From contig JACRKF010000027.1 in assembly GCA_016219865.1 (NCBI GenBank), positions 1 through 53,958 of the forward strand: a stretch of DNA of 53,958 nt. The letters are read 5' to 3'. Shown here in pieces: positions 2,461-53,852 of this stretch (the first letter of the stretch is position 1; each line of letters starts with the position of its first letter). The stretch comes from Candidatus Woesearchaeota archaeon (lineage in GTDB: Archaea > Nanobdellota > Nanobdellia > Woesearchaeales > DSVV01). The position numbers and the translations under genes are program-made. The notes below the pieces were generated by a model. The model worked only from the letters and a program-made list of their open reading frames with translations, ran no database searches and had not been told where the DNA came from.

Positions 2461-3546
2461 CTAAAAACTCCTCATTCTCTCAAATTCCTTATACCTCGCA
2501 TCAATCTCTTTCAAAGTTAATCGCTTCATCCTTTCCAACGAGAAATCTTCTGCATTAAACGAAGCAATTGTTGAGCCATACACAACTGCTTTTTTTATAT
2601 TTGCAAATGACAGATTATCTGTTGCAGCTAAATATCCTATAAATCCGCCTGCAAAACAATCCCCGCAGCCAGTTGGATCTTTGATTACTTCTAATGGATA
2701 GCCAGGAGCATTAAAATGAAGCTCATTGCCATTATTATTTTGATTATGATTCTCATTGTCCGGATTGCATGGTTTTGAGAATTTTGCGGCTGTGCCGCAA
2801 AATTCTCTCGCAAATAGTAAAGCCCCATGCTCTCCTTTTTTGATGATGCAATACTGCACCCCTAATGCTAATGCTTTTTTAGCAGCCTGCGCAAGATTAA
2901 CTGTATCAAACAACATTCTTGCTTCAGCATCATTAATGACTAATACATTTACCTTTTTTATTATTTCAATCAATTTTTCTTTTGCAATCTGTATCCATAA
3001 GTTCATAGAGTCAAGCACAATAAACTTTGGATCACGCAATTGTTCAATCACCTTCAATTGCAGTTCAGGTGGATTATTTGCAAGAAGAATATATTTTGCA
3101 TCTTTATATTCCGCAGGAATATCTGCTGTAAAATCAGCTAATGAATTAAGCTCTGTCTTTAATGTATGCGCTTGATTCATATCAAATTCATATTTTCCTG
3201 ACCAACGAAAGTTCTTGCCATGTATTGTTACGCCTTGAAGATCAATATTTCTTTGGCGTAACAATTCAAAATGTTCTTTTGGAAGATCTTCGCCAGCAAT
3301 TGCAACTAAACCTATACTACTCTTATTTTCTGTAACTTTCATATTGTGCGGATTGCCTGATGAGGAGAATTCTGGGTGAATTAATTTGCTTTGCAAATTA
3401 TGGCTTTTATCATTGCAGAATTCTCCAAAGAATGAAGCAGCATAGCTTGCATATATTGCAGAGCCTCCTAAAGCATTCTTTATTTCACCAAACGGAGTAG
3501 AGATATCATCTAATCCAATGCTGCCAATAATTATCATTTGCGCCAT
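2461..3546 (-). CDS. PfkB-family sugar kinase with two unusual insertions
   Basis: N-terminal IIGSIGLDDI...LGGSAIYAS; C-terminal DPTGCGDCFAGGFIGYL. Confidence 0.85.
   Translation of the reverse strand: MAQMIIIGSIGLDDISTPFGEIKNALGGSAIYASYAASFFGEFCNDKSHNLQSKLIHPEFSSSGNPHNMKVTENKSSIGLVAIAGEDLPKEHFELLRQRNIDLQGVTIHGKNFRWSGKYEFDMNQAHTLKTELNSLADFTADIPAEYKDAKYILLANNPPELQLKVIEQLRDPKFIVLDSMNLWIQIAKEKLIEIIKKVNVLVINDAEARMLFDTVNLAQAAKKALALGVQYCIIKKGEHGALLFAREFCGTAAKFSKPCNPDNENHNQNNNGNELHFNAPGYPLEVIKDPTGCGDCFAGGFIGYLAATDNLSFANIKKAVVYGSTIASFNAEDFSLERMKRLTLKEIDARYKEFERMRSF
2755..2807. repeat. Palindromic element copy inside PfkB CDS
   Basis: ATTGTCCGGATTGC then GAGAATTTTGCGGC-tgt-GCCGCAAAATTCTC (perfect 14-bp stem). 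Confidence 0.8.
3343..3426. repeat. Second palindromic element copy inside PfkB CDS
   Basis: ATTGTGCGGATTGCC then GGAGAATTCTG ... CAGAATTCTCC, with nested TAATTTGC-ttt-GCAAATTA. Confidence 0.75.
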
Positions 3547-3621: not shown

Positions 3622-4071
3622 ATGGCATTAAAAATAATGGATAAAAACTGCTGCGATATTTATGAAAAGTTTGAAAAGAAAAATCTTCTGCTCAAAAGCT
3701 ACTATTATTGGGATGTAATTGTAAGAAACAAACAAGTTACTCTTGGTTCATGTGTGATTATCCTTAAACGCCATGTTGAAAACTTTGGACAAGTTGAACC
3801 TGATGAACTTACAGAGTTTTCTGATGCTGTCCAAGAACTAGAAAAAGCATTGAAAAACATTTTTTCATATGACAAAATTAATTATCTCATGCTGATGATG
3901 GTAGATAATCATGTCCATTTTCATGTTATTCCTCGTTATCAGAAAGAAAAAGAATTTGATAAGAACAAGTTCCAAGACAAATGCTGGCCAAAGATTTCAG
4001 ATATGCAGCCGCAAGAGATTTCTAAAGAAACAATTATAAAAATAAAAGAAAAAATACTTTCCAATTACTAA
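3622..4071 (+). CDS. HIT-family protein
   Basis: CVIILKRHVENFGQV and DNHVHFHVIPRY (HxHxH-like HIT motif). Confidence 0.8.
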   Translation: MALKIMDKNCCDIYEKFEKKNLLLKSYYYWDVIVRNKQVTLGSCVIILKRHVENFGQVEPDELTEFSDAVQELEKALKNIFSYDKINYLMLMMVDNHVHFHVIPRYQKEKEFDKNKFQDKCWPKISDMQPQEISKETIIKIKEKILSNY

Positions 4072-4093
4072 AGAGAATTTTGCAAAGTTTTCT
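4072..4093. repeat. Short palindromic repeat core
   Basis: AGAGAATTTTGCAAAGTTTTCT directly after the stop codon of the HIT gene. Confidence 0.65.
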
Positions 4094-4277
4094 AAACCGC
4101 AGATAATCGTCATTTTAACAAAAAGAGTGCTATTTTGGCTTATTTAATCATAATGAGCTTAAATAAATAATTATAAAGTATTAAAAAAGAGCATAAAGCT
4201 TTACACTGAATTCTTTAGAAAGTATGTTTATAAACAAGATAGACCTACTATACACATCACAAAAAGAAATAATGTTT

Positions 4278-4317
4278 AGAGAATTTTGCAAAAATAGCAA
4301 TTTTTGCAAAGTTCTCT
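4278..4317. repeat. Palindromic repeat copy (long-stem version)
   Basis: AGAGAATTTTGCAAAAAT-agca-ATTTTTGCAAAGTTCTCT; near-identical to 33792-33830. Confidence 0.8.
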
Positions 4318-15136: not shown

Positions 15137-15158
15137 AGAGAACTTTGCAAAATTCTCT
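15137..15158. repeat. Short palindromic repeat core
   Basis: AGAGAACTTTGCAAAATTCTCT directly downstream of the minus-strand gene ending at 15162. Confidence 0.7.
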
Positions 15159-33791: not shown

Positions 33792-33903
33792 AGAGAATTT
33801 TGCAAAAATAGCAATTTTTGCAAAATTCTCCTCAGCAGGCCAAAGATAATGCCGACTTCTTCGACATTATCAAGCGTTGCTTACAGCAACAAATCCGGAC
33901 AAT
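33792..33903. repeat. Palindromic element copy with downstream hairpins and AATCCGGACAAT box
   Basis: GAGAATTTTGCAAAAAT-agca-ATTTTTGCAAAATTCTC (17-bp perfect stem) ... AATCCGGACAAT. Confidence 0.8.
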
Positions 33904-33921
33904 AGGGAATTAATAACATAA

Positions 33922-33953
33922 AGAACTTTGCAAAGAATTTTGCAAAGTTCTCT
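33922..33953. repeat. Short palindromic repeat, 32-nt exact inverted match to 53821-53852
   Basis: AGAACTTTGCAAAGAATTTTGCAAAGTTCTCT. Confidence 0.85.
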
Positions 33954-33982
33954 AAACGTACCAAATAATCGATATTTCTTAG

Positions 33983-38500: not shown

Positions 38501-40882
38501 CTAATTATTTTCTTCTTTAGATCCCTGTTCTTGAGAATCATCTCCACTATTATCCTTATTCTCACTATCATTTTGATTATCTTGTTGTTCATTATTTTCT
38601 GAATTATCTTGATCCTCTTTTTCTTGTTGATTATATCCTCTTTGTTCATCATTATCTTGATAATCTCTTCTCATATCACGATTATCTTTTTCCCTTCCAC
38701 TATCAATATATTCTCGATCCCGCTCAAGTTTCTCTATTTCCTTTTGCAATCGCTGAACATCAGTAAAATCAGCTGCTTCTTTGCTTCCTTGCTCTGCATC
38801 ATGGAGCAATTGTTTTATTTCTTCAGGGCTTAAGCTTTCAAAAGAACGATCACCTATGTTAATTCTTCCTTCTTTTTGCATTCTTTGTAGATCACCAATA
38901 AAATTAAATCGTTGCTGTTCATGTTGTTGCTGGCCGTAGTTTTCTCCTATTGGAAATCCTTGCGGCATTGTAGGAATATCAACTTTTCTTATGACGCCGC
39001 CAACTGCTTCTTCTCTTTTTTCTTCATACATTTCTTGATATTTTCCTTGTCCAATTTCTTCTGTTATCTTTTGCGTGCTCATTTCTTTGCATGCTTCCAT
39101 TCCAATAAACTCGCCGTCTTTTATGCATTCTTGCGGAGCCCCGCCTTTGTTATCTGGACCTCCATTTTTCATATCAGGGAAATCACCTTCGCTAAATTCT
39201 CCTTCGGAAAATCCTTGTCCATATCCTTCTCCTTGCTGGTATTTCTCTTTCATAATTGTTTCACATTCTTCTTTGCCTATAAATTCGTTATCTTTCATGC
39301 ATTCCTGCGGAGCTTTGCCTTCTCCTCTTTCACCCTGCATCTGGTTCTTGAATTTTTCTTCACATGCTTCCCTTCCAATAAAATCGTCACCGTCAAAGCA
39401 TTCTTTTGGTATCTTTCCAGCATCGCGCATTTTTGCAGTGCATTCTTTTTCGCTGATTGGTCTTCCACCTTCAATGCATTCTTCTGGAATATTTCCTTCA
39501 GCCATCATCTTCTCCTCACATGCTTCCCTGCCGATAAAATCGTCACCGTCGAAGCATTCTTTTGGTATTTTTCCTGCTTCTTTCATTTTTTCCAGACACG
39601 CGTTTTCACCAATTGGTCTTCCATCTTCTATGCATTCTTCTGGAATATCTCCGGAATCCATCATTTTCTGTTCACATTCTTCTCGTCCGATAAATTTATC
39701 GCCATCAAAACATTGTTCAGGTATTTTTCCTGCTTCTTTCATTTTTTGAATGCACTGTTCTTCTCCTATGAACCTGTCGTCAGCAACACACTCATCAGGC
39801 ATTTTTCCAGATTCAATCATCTTCTTTGTGCATTTCTTTTCTCCGATAAATCGTCCATTTTCCATGCATTCTTCAGGAGGTTCGCCATGTTTTTCAATCA
39901 TTATCTTTTTACAATCTTCTTTTGTCTTTGCTCCTGCTTCGATGCATTCTTTTGGCGCAAATTTCTCAAACATTTGTTCTTCTTCCTCATCCATAATCTG
40001 CCTGAATTTCTCTCTCATGAACTCTGGCAGCAATTCTTCTCCTGCATATTGTCCTTCAGAATCAAGTTCTTGGCATGCCTCTTCATTATCTTCAAGTTCG
40101 CAGAGTATAACTAATTTCTTATCCTTTTCGCAGTATGTTTTCATTTTCTGTATAGGAATATCTTGACACTGGCAATTCTGTATATCTCCAATGCATGACT
40201 TTAATACTTCTGCAAGTTTATTCGTTGCTTCCTCTTGCAATTTTCTAATGTCAGTTTCAATATAATCTTTTAACCAAGCAGGAGCTGTATCTGGATTGCA
40301 TTTTTCTTCTTGCTCCATCAATGCATAATCGATTCTTGCCAGTTGTTCACATAAGTTTACAATTTTATCAGCAAGTTCTCCTGCAAGCTTGTTTTTCTCA
40401 ACTTGATTGGAAAGAGAATTGTACAATTGCTGAATCTTTTCTTCATCTGGCAATTGTTCTTGCAATTGTTTAAGAATATCTTGTATCTCTTTACTGTCTG
40501 CTTCAACTTGTTTTTTTAAATCTGGAGAAATCTCCTCTTCAATTAACGCTGAGATATTTTTTGCATTTACTAATGCAATTGTTAAAGCAGCTGTATTGTT
40601 CTCAGCAGCCATCTGTTGCGCTTCAGCTGCTTTTTCCTTAGCAATCTCTAATGCATATTCTACTTTTTCATCCCCTTCTTTTGTTGCGAGTTTAACTTCT
40701 TCAACAATCTCATCAATAAAATAAAAAGGACTGTCTGGAGTAATTCCTGCTTTTGGCGCTTCGATAACAACTTCCTCTTCTTCATCCTCTTCAGCAGCAG
40801 CGACAAGAATACCAAACATAAAAATACTTACTAATAACAAAAATAATAAACTAAATATCCGCTTTAATCTTTCTTCTTGCAT
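38501..40882 (-). CDS. Secreted/surface protein with about ten 26-aa C-x11-C repeats
   Basis: N-terminal signal; repeats such as CFDGDDFIGREACEEKMMAEGNIPEE; acidic/Gln-rich tail. Confidence 0.75.
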   Translation of the reverse strand: MQEERLKRIFSLLFLLLVSIFMFGILVAAAEEDEEEEVVIEAPKAGITPDSPFYFIDEIVEEVKLATKEGDEKVEYALEIAKEKAAEAQQMAAENNTAALTIALVNAKNISALIEEEISPDLKKQVEADSKEIQDILKQLQEQLPDEEKIQQLYNSLSNQVEKNKLAGELADKIVNLCEQLARIDYALMEQEEKCNPDTAPAWLKDYIETDIRKLQEEATNKLAEVLKSCIGDIQNCQCQDIPIQKMKTYCEKDKKLVILCELEDNEEACQELDSEGQYAGEELLPEFMREKFRQIMDEEEEQMFEKFAPKECIEAGAKTKEDCKKIMIEKHGEPPEECMENGRFIGEKKCTKKMIESGKMPDECVADDRFIGEEQCIQKMKEAGKIPEQCFDGDKFIGREECEQKMMDSGDIPEECIEDGRPIGENACLEKMKEAGKIPKECFDGDDFIGREACEEKMMAEGNIPEECIEGGRPISEKECTAKMRDAGKIPKECFDGDDFIGREACEEKFKNQMQGERGEGKAPQECMKDNEFIGKEECETIMKEKYQQGEGYGQGFSEGEFSEGDFPDMKNGGPDNKGGAPQECIKDGEFIGMEACKEMSTQKITEEIGQGKYQEMYEEKREEAVGGVIRKVDIPTMPQGFPIGENYGQQQHEQQRFNFIGDLQRMQKEGRINIGDRSFESLSPEEIKQLLHDAEQGSKEAADFTDVQRLQKEIEKLERDREYIDSGREKDNRDMRRDYQDNDEQRGYNQQEKEDQDNSENNEQQDNQNDSENKDNSGDDSQEQGSKEENN

Positions 40883-45518: not shown

Positions 45519-45659
45519 ATGAAGAAACCGATCTCCGCAACAATTGATGAAGAACTGATTAAATGGATAGATAAAAAGCTCAAAGATTCTACAACATATC
45601 GCAATAAATCACATCTGATAGAAATAGCGCTGCAAAAGATGAAGAAAGAGGATAAATAA
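45519..45659 (+). CDS. 46-aa ribbon-helix-helix protein overlapping the secretion ATPase start
   Basis: MKKPISATIDEELIKWIDKKLKDSTTYRNKSHLIEIALQKMKKEDK*; TAATG overlap; not in the supplied ORF track. Confidence 0.75.
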   Translation: MKKPISATIDEELIKWIDKKLKDSTTYRNKSHLIEIALQKMKKEDK

Positions 45660-48600
45660 TGCCAATTACACAAAAGAAGGACTGGGACTTTGAAGTGATA
45701 AAAGAAGGAGAAGAGAACATATTATACATCTATTGCGAAGGAGTAAGCATATCGCCATTGGTTGAAGATTCTAGTGTAGTTATGACCAGAACAATTGATA
45801 TTCTTTCTCAAGTCTCCGGCATTAGTAAAATAATCTTTAACCAAAAAAGAGATTATGAATATGATTTCAAACAAACACAGATTCTGGCAGAAATTTCAGA
45901 ACTCTACAAAAAATTAGTCAAAGAAAAGAATTATTTCAATTATCCCTCTGCAGGGAATTATGATAATAGACTTATTAACCAAAAATACAATGAATTGCGA
46001 GAAGTTATCTTTAAACATATGAAAGGAGATCCTATTGGCGCATATATTGAATTGACAAGGATAATAAGAAGAGAAAAGATAGATATTGAGAAATTAACAG
46101 AGCCAATATTGTTAGATATTACTAAGAGATATATCTCAATAATAAGCTATGTCATTAGTCTTCTTGAAAAAACAAGAATGTTGATTGCAGCAAAACCATA
46201 TATTGCAGGCTATAAGATAGGAGACAGAAGCGTCTACAAATATATCTTCACCCCTTCAATAAAGCCGGATTTTATGTTTACAAAATTGATGGCAAATTTT
46301 CCAAGCAATGCTGAAGAGATTGATTCATACACAATTGCAGAAGACACAGATGTTACAGTTTTTCGCCTGCCTAATTCAACATTAATACTTTATCACATTG
46401 TGCCGCCTGAGTTTAAATTGCCTGAAGAAAAATATGAATTATTGGATATGGCGCGAAAAATTCTTGCAGAACATAAACCAAAACAAGAAGAATTTACAGA
46501 TCCAGAAAGAATGCGGGAAGTTTTCTCCAGCATAGGCAAGGATTTATTAGAAGAAATTGCAACATCAAAGAATATCATGCTGCGAGAAAAAGAGCTGCAG
46601 AAATTAACACAAATTCTGGTAAGATACACAATAGGTTTTGGTTTGATTGAAGTATTGCTGCAAGACGATGATATGCAGGATATCTCAATTAATAGTCCAT
46701 TGGGAAAACTGCCAATATTTATTGTTCATGGAAAATATGGTGATTGCACAACAAATATTATTCCAACTAAATCAGAATCTGAAAGTTGGGCATCAAAATT
46801 AAGATTAATCTCAGCTCGTCCATTAGACGAAGCAAATCCAATTTTAGATACAGAATTGGAATTGCCTGGCGCATCTACGAGAGTTTCAGTTATCACACAG
46901 CCATTAAATCCAACAGGATTGGCATTTTCATTCAGAAAACACAGAGATAAGCCATGGACACTGCCATTGTTTATCAAATTCAAAATGTTAAGCCCAATTG
47001 CTGCAGGATTAATCAGTTTTCTAGTTGATGGAACGCGAACAATCTTAATTGCAGGAACAAGAAGCGCAGGAAAATCCTCTTTTTTAACAGGAGTGCTTGT
47101 TGAGATTATGAGAAAGTATAGAATAATAACTGTTGAAGATAGTGTTACAGGTGATTCTGAAATACTCATCAAAAATAACAACAGATGGCAAAGAACAACA
47201 ATAGGAAATCTTATTGACAAGCAGTTAGAAAAACAAGTTTCACTGCAAACATTTTCTGGACATGAGATTGCAGAAAATACAGATTATATTGAAATCTTTG
47301 CAATGAACAAAAAAGGAAAGATTGTAGTTGCAAAACCTTCTGTATTTATTCGACACAAAATAACAAAACCAATATATAAAATAAAAACAAGAACAGGAAA
47401 GATATTGAAAGTAACTGGTGATCATTCTCTATTTGCAATTGGAGAAAACGCAGAAATTTCAGAGACAAAAGTAAATAATCTGATTCTTGGAAATAAAATA
47501 GCTGTAGCAAGAAAATTGCCATTAGTCAATAAAGAAAAAGAATATATGGAAATATTGTGCGATGTAATTGAAAGGACAGATTCATTTATTAGAGGTTTAA
47601 CAACAAACTATTGTTTAGAACATCATTTTAATGATATAGCGTCATTTGGTTCAGCAAGAAATGTTAGTTATGCAACAATAAAAAGTTGGAGAAGAAACAA
47701 AATTCTTCCAGGATATATTGCAAAAGATCTTATAACACTTCATCAAACGCTTGACTTTTCAACAGATAGATTCAGAATAAATAATTCACAGATATTGATG
47801 CCATTAAAAATACAATTAACAGAAGATTTTATGACATGTATTGGTTTATGGATTGCAGACGGTTGTTATGACAAAAAATCAATTATCATATCCTGCAATG
47901 ATCCAGAAGATAGGGCAGTTGTAGAAAGAGTTGGAAAGAGTTTAGGAATACAATACAAAATGCATAGTGATGGCATTTCCTATATGCTCAATTCTAAAAC
48001 ATTAAAGGTGGTATTGCAAGACTTCCTTTTATGCACTGGAAATTCATACACAAAAAGAGTTCCTGAATGGATCTGCACCCTCTCGCCGCAGCAGATTGCT
48101 GCATTCTTACGAGGAGTATTCACAGGTGATGGCTGCGCAACAGACAAAGAAATAGCAATTAATCTCTGCAGCAAGCATCTTTTATATGATCTGCAGACAT
48201 TGCTTTTACTTTTTAATTGTAATCTTAGAATTGGAAATGTTAGAGTAAGAAATAAAACAACACGAGCTGCAATTTCTGGAAATGAATCTCTAACCAATTT
48301 TGCAAAATATATTGGATTTCTGCAACCATATAAAAACAATGTGCTTTCAAGACTTTGTGAGAAAAAGGTAATTCATGATACAACTGATACATTTGATTTA
48401 AGTTTATCAATAAAAAAACAACTTTCATATATTTTTAGAAATAAATTCAATACAAATGATTATATCAATAAAAATAATTGCATAGGAAGAAAAAAACTTG
48501 CATCTTTATTGCAAATAGAATCGCAAAAACAAACGCTAGAGTTGCAGCATCAAATACTGGGAAATCTAAAGCAATTGCTTGAATCAGACATATATTGGGA

Positions 48601-49510
48601 TGAAATTGTTGAAATTACGCCAATTCATGAATTTGAAGGATATGTCTATGATCTTTCTGTGCCTGAGTGTGAAAGCTTTATCTGCGGAAATATTATAGCG
48701 CACAATACTTTAGAATTGCCAAACAAAGCTTTCCGTGATCTTGGATTTAATATACAATCAATGAAAGTAGCAAGCGCATTAGCTCATGATTCAACAGAAG
48801 TTTCTGCTGAAACTGGAATTAGAACAACACTTCGTCTAGGAGATTCAGCATTGATTGTAGGAGAAGTAAGAAGTAAGGAAGCAGTTGCATTATACGAAGC
48901 AATGCGTGTTGGCGCTGCTGCAAACGTTGTTGCAGGAACAATCCACGGTGATTCACCTTATGGTGTATACGACAGAGTTGTAAATGACATAGGTATTCCT
49001 AAAACATCTTTCAAAGCAACAGATATTATTATTGTTACAAATCCAATAAAATCTGCAGATGGTATGCATAAATACAAAAGAGTTACACAAATAACAGAAG
49101 TTAGAAAACGTTGGGAAAATGATCCAATGCAGGAAAAAGCATTTGTTGATCTGATGAAATACGAGCCAAAAACAGATGAATTATTGATTACACCTGATTT
49201 AAAGAACGGAGATTCAGAAATCCTTAAAGCAATTGCAGGAAATGTAAAAGAATTTGCAGGCAGCTGGGATGCAGTATGGGATAATATTCTCTTAAGAGGA
49301 ACTATAAAAGAAAACATTGTAAAGATGGCTGAACAAATGAAGAATGACGAATTATTAGAGGCCCCATTTGTCATAAAAGCAAATGATATGTTTCACATAA
49401 TCTCTGAAAAAGTAAAAGAAGAAGTTGGATTTTTAGACAGTAAAAAAATACTTTTTCAATGGAATGATTGGTTAAGCAGAGAAGTAAAGAAAACTCAAAA
49501 AATCGAATAG
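45659..49510 (+). CDS. Type II/IV secretion (FlaI/TadA-like) ATPase containing an intein
   Basis: LIAGTRSAGKSSFL Walker A; IITVED/TLELPNKAFRDLGFNIQSMK Asp box split by intein; RLGDSALIVGEVRSKEAVALYEAMRVGAAANVVAGTIHGDSPYGVYDRV. Confidence 0.93.
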   Translation: MPITQKKDWDFEVIKEGEENILYIYCEGVSISPLVEDSSVVMTRTIDILSQVSGISKIIFNQKRDYEYDFKQTQILAEISELYKKLVKEKNYFNYPSAGNYDNRLINQKYNELREVIFKHMKGDPIGAYIELTRIIRREKIDIEKLTEPILLDITKRYISIISYVISLLEKTRMLIAAKPYIAGYKIGDRSVYKYIFTPSIKPDFMFTKLMANFPSNAEEIDSYTIAEDTDVTVFRLPNSTLILYHIVPPEFKLPEEKYELLDMARKILAEHKPKQEEFTDPERMREVFSSIGKDLLEEIATSKNIMLREKELQKLTQILVRYTIGFGLIEVLLQDDDMQDISINSPLGKLPIFIVHGKYGDCTTNIIPTKSESESWASKLRLISARPLDEANPILDTELELPGASTRVSVITQPLNPTGLAFSFRKHRDKPWTLPLFIKFKMLSPIAAGLISFLVDGTRTILIAGTRSAGKSSFLTGVLVEIMRKYRIITVEDSVTGDSEILIKNNNRWQRTTIGNLIDKQLEKQVSLQTFSGHEIAENTDYIEIFAMNKKGKIVVAKPSVFIRHKITKPIYKIKTRTGKILKVTGDHSLFAIGENAEISETKVNNLILGNKIAVARKLPLVNKEKEYMEILCDVIERTDSFIRGLTTNYCLEHHFNDIASFGSARNVSYATIKSWRRNKILPGYIAKDLITLHQTLDFSTDRFRINNSQILMPLKIQLTEDFMTCIGLWIADGCYDKKSIIISCNDPEDRAVVERVGKSLGIQYKMHSDGISYMLNSKTLKVVLQDFLLCTGNSYTKRVPEWICTLSPQQIAAFLRGVFTGDGCATDKEIAINLCSKHLLYDLQTLLLLFNCNLRIGNVRVRNKTTRAAISGNESLTNFAKYIGFLQPYKNNVLSRLCEKKVIHDTTDTFDLSLSIKKQLSYIFRNKFNTNDYINKNNCIGRKKLASLLQIESQKQTLELQHQILGNLKQLLESDIYWDEIVEITPIHEFEGYVYDLSVPECESFICGNIIAHNTLELPNKAFRDLGFNIQSMKVASALAHDSTEVSAETGIRTTLRLGDSALIVGEVRSKEAVALYEAMRVGAAANVVAGTIHGDSPYGVYDRVVNDIGIPKTSFKATDIIIVTNPIKSADGMHKYKRVTQITEVRKRWENDPMQEKAFVDLMKYEPKTDELLITPDLKNGDSEILKAIAGNVKEFAGSWDAVWDNILLRGTIKENIVKMAEQMKNDELLEAPFVIKANDMFHIISEKVKEEVGFLDSKKILFQWNDWLSREVKKTQKIE
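47141..48706 (+). other. Intein (522 aa) with LAGLIDADG homing endonuclease
   Basis: Starts SVTGDSEILIKNN; block B KVTGDHSLFAI; CIGLWIADGCYD and FLRGVFTGDGCA; ends YVYDLSVPECESFICGNIIAHN followed by +1 Thr. Confidence 0.93.
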
Positions 49511-53140: not shown

Positions 53141-53302
53141 CTCTTAACTACATTATAGTTCTTACTGCTTTTTTTGAAAGCAGTGTTATTTTTTCAATAA
53201 ATAAGCCATGAATTGTATCATAACTCATATCATTGCAAGTATATTGTTCATCAAGCCTATACATAATAATCACCTCAGTTTTTTGATCCTTATCAAATTC
53301 TT

Positions 53303-53351
53303 TTGTCCGAATTGCCTAGTTGTGATAATTTTGCATTTTCGCAAAATTATC
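53303..53351. repeat. Palindromic element copy
   Basis: TTGTCCGAATTGCC then GATAATTTTGC-attttc-GCAAAATTATC. Confidence 0.75.
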
Positions 53352-53595
53352 AATAAAAATAATAAGACAAAGGGCTTTAGGGGGTTGAATCGCCCTTGTC
53401 AAAGTCAAACAAAATAGAATTATACTACGCTAAGTCCTTTATATACCTCACAGCTCCATGTCCAGTGACCAGTGCAGAGTGTTTATAGTGGCCAGTGGGT
53501 ATATCTGCCATATGGAATTTATACTCTATTTATCTATTACATTTGTATAATGAATAAGTGTTAAGTAAAATAAAATAACGGCACTAAACTGAATA

Positions 53596-53820: not shown

Positions 53821-53852
53821 AGAGAACTTTGCAAAATTCTTTGCAAAGTTCT
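53821..53852. repeat. Short palindromic repeat, inverted exact copy of 33922-33953
   Basis: AGAGAACTTTGCAAAATTCTTTGCAAAGTTCT. Confidence 0.85.

Follow-up and report, generated by a model that had tools for sequence, protein, structure and literature searches.

Palindromic repeats lying in frame within genes and directly behind stop codons in a Woesearchaeota genus, with two copies in a PfkB-family kinase gene

The window, that is, the whole stretch of 53,958 bp of Candidatus Woesearchaeota DNA that was analysed, carries a PfkB-family carbohydrate kinase gene containing two copies of a repeat, the unit of which consists of a TTGTCCGGATTGCC tag and a GAGAATTTTGC/GCAAAATTCTC hairpin (Table 1). 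A preliminary description of this DNA had reported both copies (tag plus hairpin, at 2755-2807 and 3343-3426), in a common orientation and a common reading frame. All of these points were borne out; in addition, the gene was found to lie on the minus strand, which had not been stated. Relative to the direction of the gene, the hairpin of each copy comes first and is followed by the tag. Read from the minus strand, copy A gives REFCGTAAKFSKPCNPDN, placed between the ALLFA and APGYPLE segments, and copy B gives GEFCNDKSHNLQSKLIHPEFSSSGNPHN, which precedes IGLVAIAGED; the one frame common to both reads REFC..KFS..NPDN and GEFC..EFS..GNPHN. Two other features of the window were also noted. An archaeal secretion-type ATPase (45659-49510, plus strand) has its ITVED/TLELP motif split by a long segment, SVTGDSEIL...GNIIAHN, which looks like an intein from its sequence, and a secreted protein of 793 aa (38501-40882, minus strand) has many repeats of the form PECIEDGRPIGENACLEKMKEAGKIPKECFDGDDFIG.

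Table 1. Coordinates in the window of the PfkB gene and of the copies of the repeat.
Feature	Position	Strand	Evidence
PfkB-family carbohydrate kinase CDS, 361 aa, two in-frame elements	2461..3546	-	PF00294 E 6e-14; 3kd6_A E 3.8e-80
Element copy A: tag 2755-2768 (ATTGTCCGGATTGC), perfect 14-bp hairpin 2777-2807	2746..2812	+	covariance model E 4.8e-12 (copy A among the sequences used to build the model)
Element copy B, the long variant, in which an inner hairpin is nested: tag 3343-3356 (ATTGTGCGGATTGC), outer hairpin about 3364-3426	3334..3430	+	covariance model E 1.3e-8
Copy B outer hairpin GGAGAATTCTG / CAGAATTCTCC with inner 8-bp hairpin	3364..3426	.	folding
Degenerate palindrome copy directly behind HIT-family gene 3622-4071	4073..4094	.	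near-match to palindrome
Hairpin-only copy, 38-nt class, intergenic	4278..4317	.	palindrome pattern
20-nt palindrome GAGAACTTTGCAAAATTCTC between two genes, left-end type	15138..15157	.	near-match to palindrome
Full-length composite: 38-nt hairpin, tag split by second palindromic unit, left-end palindrome 33919-33954	33793..33954	-	
P2, the second palindromic unit of about 51 bp, inside the tag of the copy at 33793	33839..33892	-	
Tagged copy in which an arm change is compensated (GATAATTTTGC/GCAAAATTATC); not within a long ORF	53293..53356	+	covariance model E 1.0e-12
Left-end-type palindrome, intergenic	53822..53852	.	

A covariance model (R1) was built on 24 tagged copies, with PfkB copy A included and copy B excluded. 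Copy A, itself one of the training sequences, was matched at E 4.8e-12, and copy B, from outside the training set, was still found at E = 1.3e-8, which shows that the two copies are homologous. These matches, and the recurrence of this DNA at about 80 further places in the genome, refute the reading of the two segments as ordinary variable loops of PfkB instead of repeat insertions; that reading could draw on the small extra residues present at both loops in the same-genus genome G001, but it has next to no probability.

Alignment of PfkB from 13 relatives, including G001 (79-89% identical), showed that both inserts were absent from all 13; both G001 loops were longer than those of the outgroups. 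At the two sites, where the protein of the present genome (G000) has 36 and 31 residues, the solved homologue 3kd6 has only 3 and 4. Judged from these short stretches, which are read as turns, both inserts appear to sit in surface loops, as had been proposed; PfkB is the one host protein on which loop placement was mapped. At site 2, the G001 loop contains TCAGCAGGCAAT, which matches 12 nt of the element tag exactly and may be left over from an earlier insertion there.

The repeat was found to belong to a family that is spread over the 1.34-Mb genome. The pattern GARAAYTYTGC-N0-45-GCARARTTYTC occurred 43 times, compared to 0 for the reversed control, and within the window there were 20 near-matches to GAGAATTTTGC where 4.0 were expected; chance does not account for the repeat. 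The covariance model gave 149 strand-wise matches, corresponding to about 80 distinct places. Tagged copies have in common the sequence (t)tcccTATTGTCCGRATTGCCTGATGAG, followed by the hairpin. In the fullest young form, of about 112 bp, the core AATTCCCTATTGTCCGGATTGCCTGCTGAG is flanked on the left by the palindrome GAGAACTTTGCAAARAATTTTGCAAAGTTCTC and on the right by the hairpin GAGAATTTTGC-loop-GCAAAATTCTC; this form has terminal inverted repeats (GAGAAYTTTGC at the left end, GCAAAATTCTC at the right end). Near-identical young copies of this length were present at unrelated sites on contigs C6, C24 and C32, with related copies on C9 and C17. Besides PfkB copy B, the long variant, which has an additional inner hairpin, was found at C50:8183, C17:19095, C18:97462 and C34:18312. 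A second palindromic unit, P2 (GATAATGYCGA...GTCGGCATTATC, preceded by GTTGCTGTAAGCAAC), was present at the identical tag position in three dispersed copies, at 33839-33892 in the window, at C13:17683 and at C26:2453-2489. One possibility is a single insertion of P2 followed by spread of the composite; the other is that the longer form came first and gave rise to the common tag by internal deletion. Since P2 lies at the same internal position in all three copies, the composites spread as units under either history.

Secondary structure was conserved across the family. In the 53 tagged hairpins compared, pairing was intact at 559 of 583 arm positions, against a shuffle mean of 473 (sd 4.7) and a maximum of 496 in 2000 shuffles. 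In the same hairpins, 48 of the 56 left-arm deviations were compensated on the other arm, and therefore the hairpin itself is conserved. Two orthologous pairs give direct examples. The pair at C34:6722 reads TTCTGC..GCAGAA here and TTTTGC..GCAAAA in G001. Compensation of this kind reflects either selection for the fold or repair in which one arm serves as the template for its partner. In the other pair, located behind a stop codon at C26:3783, the loop is AAA in G000 and TTT, the inverted form, in G001, and the tag has been lost in G000.

Genome-wide, about 24 tagged copies, nearly half of all tagged copies, read through open reading frames in frame. Their hosts, as assigned by Pfam and NCBIfam, were PfkB (two copies), TYW3, LeuRS, IleRS, PheRS-alpha, a DMRL-synthase family protein, a hexapeptide transferase, phosphate acetyltransferase (at the C-terminus), a PLP-dependent enzyme, a signal-peptide peptidase (SPP), an AMP-forming ligase, NDH2, a radical SAM protein, a PUA protein, a MoxR-like AAA protein, a carbon-nitrogen hydrolase, a phosphomevalonate decarboxylase family protein (MvaD), a GNAT protein (two copies) and proteins without an assigned family. 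Hairpin-only copies in genes were found in a PPDK-like protein and at one C-terminus. From the tag to the end of the hairpin, most genic copies spanned about 45-81 nt, and every one analysed had an in-frame length and no stops. The frame preference that had been anticipated was confirmed in that three frames accounted for 20 of the 21 analysed genic copies (ENFAkLQNSPhQAIRT in 10, SLLSGLPdEENFA in 6 and EFC..KFS..SGNPDN in 4, both PfkB copies among the last), and not in the sense of one single frame. Two of the remaining three consensus frames contain stops and the third is cysteine-rich and hydrophobic; the one other copy, in the carbon-nitrogen hydrolase, uses a stop-containing frame in which the stops have been lost.

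Of the 21 genic copies, 20 had a hairpin length of 1 mod 3, compared to 16 of the 31 copies outside genes (Fisher p = 0.0007). Judged from the conservation of the frame, the inserts are probably translated and retained in the mature proteins. The RNA hairpins of the two PfkB copies are strong (-22 kcal/mol, z -3.5 to -4.8), as might be expected if the inserts never reached the protein, being either excised from the mRNA in the manner of an intron or passed over during translation in the manner of a bypassing element. However, in-frame length, the lack of stops and the excess of 1 mod 3 hairpins in genes are expected only under translation, and no out-of-frame copy that splits a gene was recognised in a non-exhaustive examination of flanking ORFs; removal or bypassing is thus exceedingly improbable.

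Nearly all of the in-frame copies were lacking in the same-genus genome G001. When joined flanks were used as queries (n = 26), the G001 genes continued across most junctions. In residue alignments of 20 genes (19 with G001 and one with G004), the insert was missing, or a loop that was shorter or unrelated stood in its place, apart from two sites that G000 and G001 have in common, in the GNAT gene at C18:98169 and the SPP gene at C34:6722. An NMD3-like protein provided the reverse case, with an insert in G001 and none in G000 or the outgroups. Polymorphic, lineage-specific presence, together with the composites, established that the repeat had spread by insertion. At several empty sites, PfkB included, the G001 loop was still longer than in the outgroups, and for this reason some insertions may have occurred before the two species separated and have since degenerated in G001; alternatively, these loops may be generally variable.

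The many copies outside genes, which the preliminary description had missed, lay mostly directly behind a stop codon, mostly in one orientation and with the hairpin side facing the gene. TAA or TAG often abutted GAGAATTTTGC. In about 16 tagged copies the hairpin faced the gene and lay within roughly 11 nt of the stop or overlapped it, and in about 3 the tag side was near the gene end. The G001 orthologues of the preceding genes mostly ended at the same residue, usually without the element. Where the gene ends match those of the orthologues, as in most of these genes, they are true 3' ends, and on this basis gene splitting by out-of-frame copies was rejected. This location fits either low-cost insertion sites or a TAA-like target.

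It would also be accounted for if the hairpin acted in the 3' untranslated region, in mRNA end formation or stability, and were selected there, the in-frame copies being tolerated by-products. The stop position is conserved in G001 where the element usually is not, some 3' copies are common to both genomes, the copy at C26:3783 has kept its hairpin after loss of the tag, and compensatory change has conserved the hairpin. On the other hand, most G001 orthologues carry no element, nearly half of the tagged copies are within genes, and cheap insertion behind stops explains the location equally well. The tagged hairpins also have no T-run after them, an observation on which an intrinsic terminator was rejected. 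A primary 3' role was therefore considered unlikely.

Among 60 related genomes, full tagged copies were found only in G001. A search of 85,462 species genomes with the exact tag-hairpin pattern returned two Woesearchaeota records; in the genomes searched, full tagged elements were confined to this genus. Three further genomes of the same family, G002, G009 and G010, have the bare hairpin, in which the loops and tails are different. Loops of ATAAATA or AGTATTT were seen in these other genera (G009: L134, L145, L148, L151; G010: L139, L143; G002: L136, L140), and some G009 and G010 hairpins carry a ACTTTGCATCG..CGAGC tail in place of the tag. The exact tagged pattern was absent from 2.9 million viral contigs, and a viral carrier was rejected.

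The abundance of short hairpins, mostly at gene ends, is also what would be seen if these were REP sequences mobilised by a tyrosine (Y1) transposase of the REP-associated type. However, a search of this genome (91% complete) found no Y1 transposase (Y1_Tnp, PF01797), and no conserved GTAG/CGTC-type tetranucleotide was seen at the foot of the hairpin in the aligned copies. G001 contains only a decayed Y1 fragment, an 87-aa frame beside an IS5-like ORF remnant (contig C38, about 62846-63073, L182). Spread by such an enzyme is very improbable. A GAGAACTTTGC palindrome is present at L182:2160-2191, adjacent to this decayed region; the region was rejected as the parent insertion sequence, as it lacks a pair of ends that match. 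Searches that covered Y1 genome-wide, as the only family, the matches to the element ends that were listed, and the IS5-like remnant of G001 by inspection yielded no parent element whose ends match. There was no clear target-site duplication; both ends are A+T-rich (TTA/TAA/TTTA), and the empty sites were compared at about 80% identity.

Very probably, then, the family is a non-autonomous, MITE-like palindrome that spread by insertion in one Woesearchaeota genus and survived behind stops or in frame at loops. The repeat, with no transposase of its own, would insert across the genome, its hairpin termini presumably recognised by a host or lost transposase. Most of the element is open in several frames, and purifying selection would retain within genes only in-frame, stop-free, loop-located copies, each adding a hydrophilic peptide of roughly 15-33 residues and leaving the protein unbroken; the other survivors would be those directly behind stop codons. 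A further reading, judged rather improbable, is that the element has its own damage control: a non-Y1 enzyme would steer insertion to TAA/TTTA-like targets, with the hairpin end on or behind stops and elsewhere in frame at loops, and the palindromes would be actively kept perfect, as suggested by the loop inversion and the compensated arms in orthologous copies. If true, a DPANN archaeon would possess a DNA hairpin system whose mode of insertion costs little and creates loops.

The preliminary description had likened the PfkB copies to Rickettsia palindromic elements (RPEs), that is, mobile palindromes that keep the host ORF open and add a peptide, and the tests that were run supported this reading. 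According to accounts of RPEs (Ogata et al. 2000, 2002) and their Wolbachia counterparts in PMC10969869, PMC3767692 and PMC2229807, these are palindromes of about 100-150 bp, present in tens of copies, both intergenic and in frame in housekeeping genes, to which they add a peptide; insertions are common to orthologues of different species and fall in surface or unstructured segments. A host protein was shown to be expressed with its insert in the case of Rickettsia gmk (PMC2229807). Like RPEs, the present repeat is a multi-copy palindromic family with conserved secondary structure, and its in-frame copies lie in phylogenetically conserved genes and are mostly absent from those of relatives. 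Unlike RPEs, it has an archaeal host, what appears to be its own consensus (no shared cross-domain origin being claimed), a full young form of about 112 bp and non-genic copies concentrated directly behind stop codons.

The statement that no named archaeal equivalent existed did not hold, in that PMC2229807 and PMC2996958 cite a study of palindromic repeats with coding potential in genes of M. jannaschii (Suyama, Lathe and Bork 2005). They too are archaeal palindromic repeats inside protein-coding genes that are not destroyed. They belong to another phylum, and their likeness to the present family is one of description. Only three coding insertions have reportedly been recorded in M. jannaschii, compared to about 24 here. 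Bacterial and archaeal MITEs (PMC10969869) are likewise short, non-coding, A+T-rich and present in many copies, with inverted-repeat ends and no transposase of their own; the present element differs in having a hairpin at one end, not only terminal inverted repeats, and in that no parent transposon or target-site duplication was identified. REP/RAYT palindromes are also short hairpins in many copies at gene ends, but here no Y1 transposase was found in the genome and many copies are in frame in genes. Coding palindromes were thus already known, one archaeal case included; as far as the searched literature shows, the present family is new for DPANN and unusually dense in genes.

These findings place selfish protein-coding palindromes in DPANN archaea, at about two dozen in-frame insertions in one 1.34-Mb genome, with three aminoacyl-tRNA synthetases among the hosts and one kinase hit twice. 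For annotation, they caution that lineage-specific loops in such genomes can be repeat-derived. Since the G001 sites are mostly empty and only a few are shared, the two genomes offer natural before/after pairs for the effect of a hairpin peptide on an enzyme. The same pairs also bear on how hairpins stay palindromic amid sequence drift, and on movement without a recognisable transposase.
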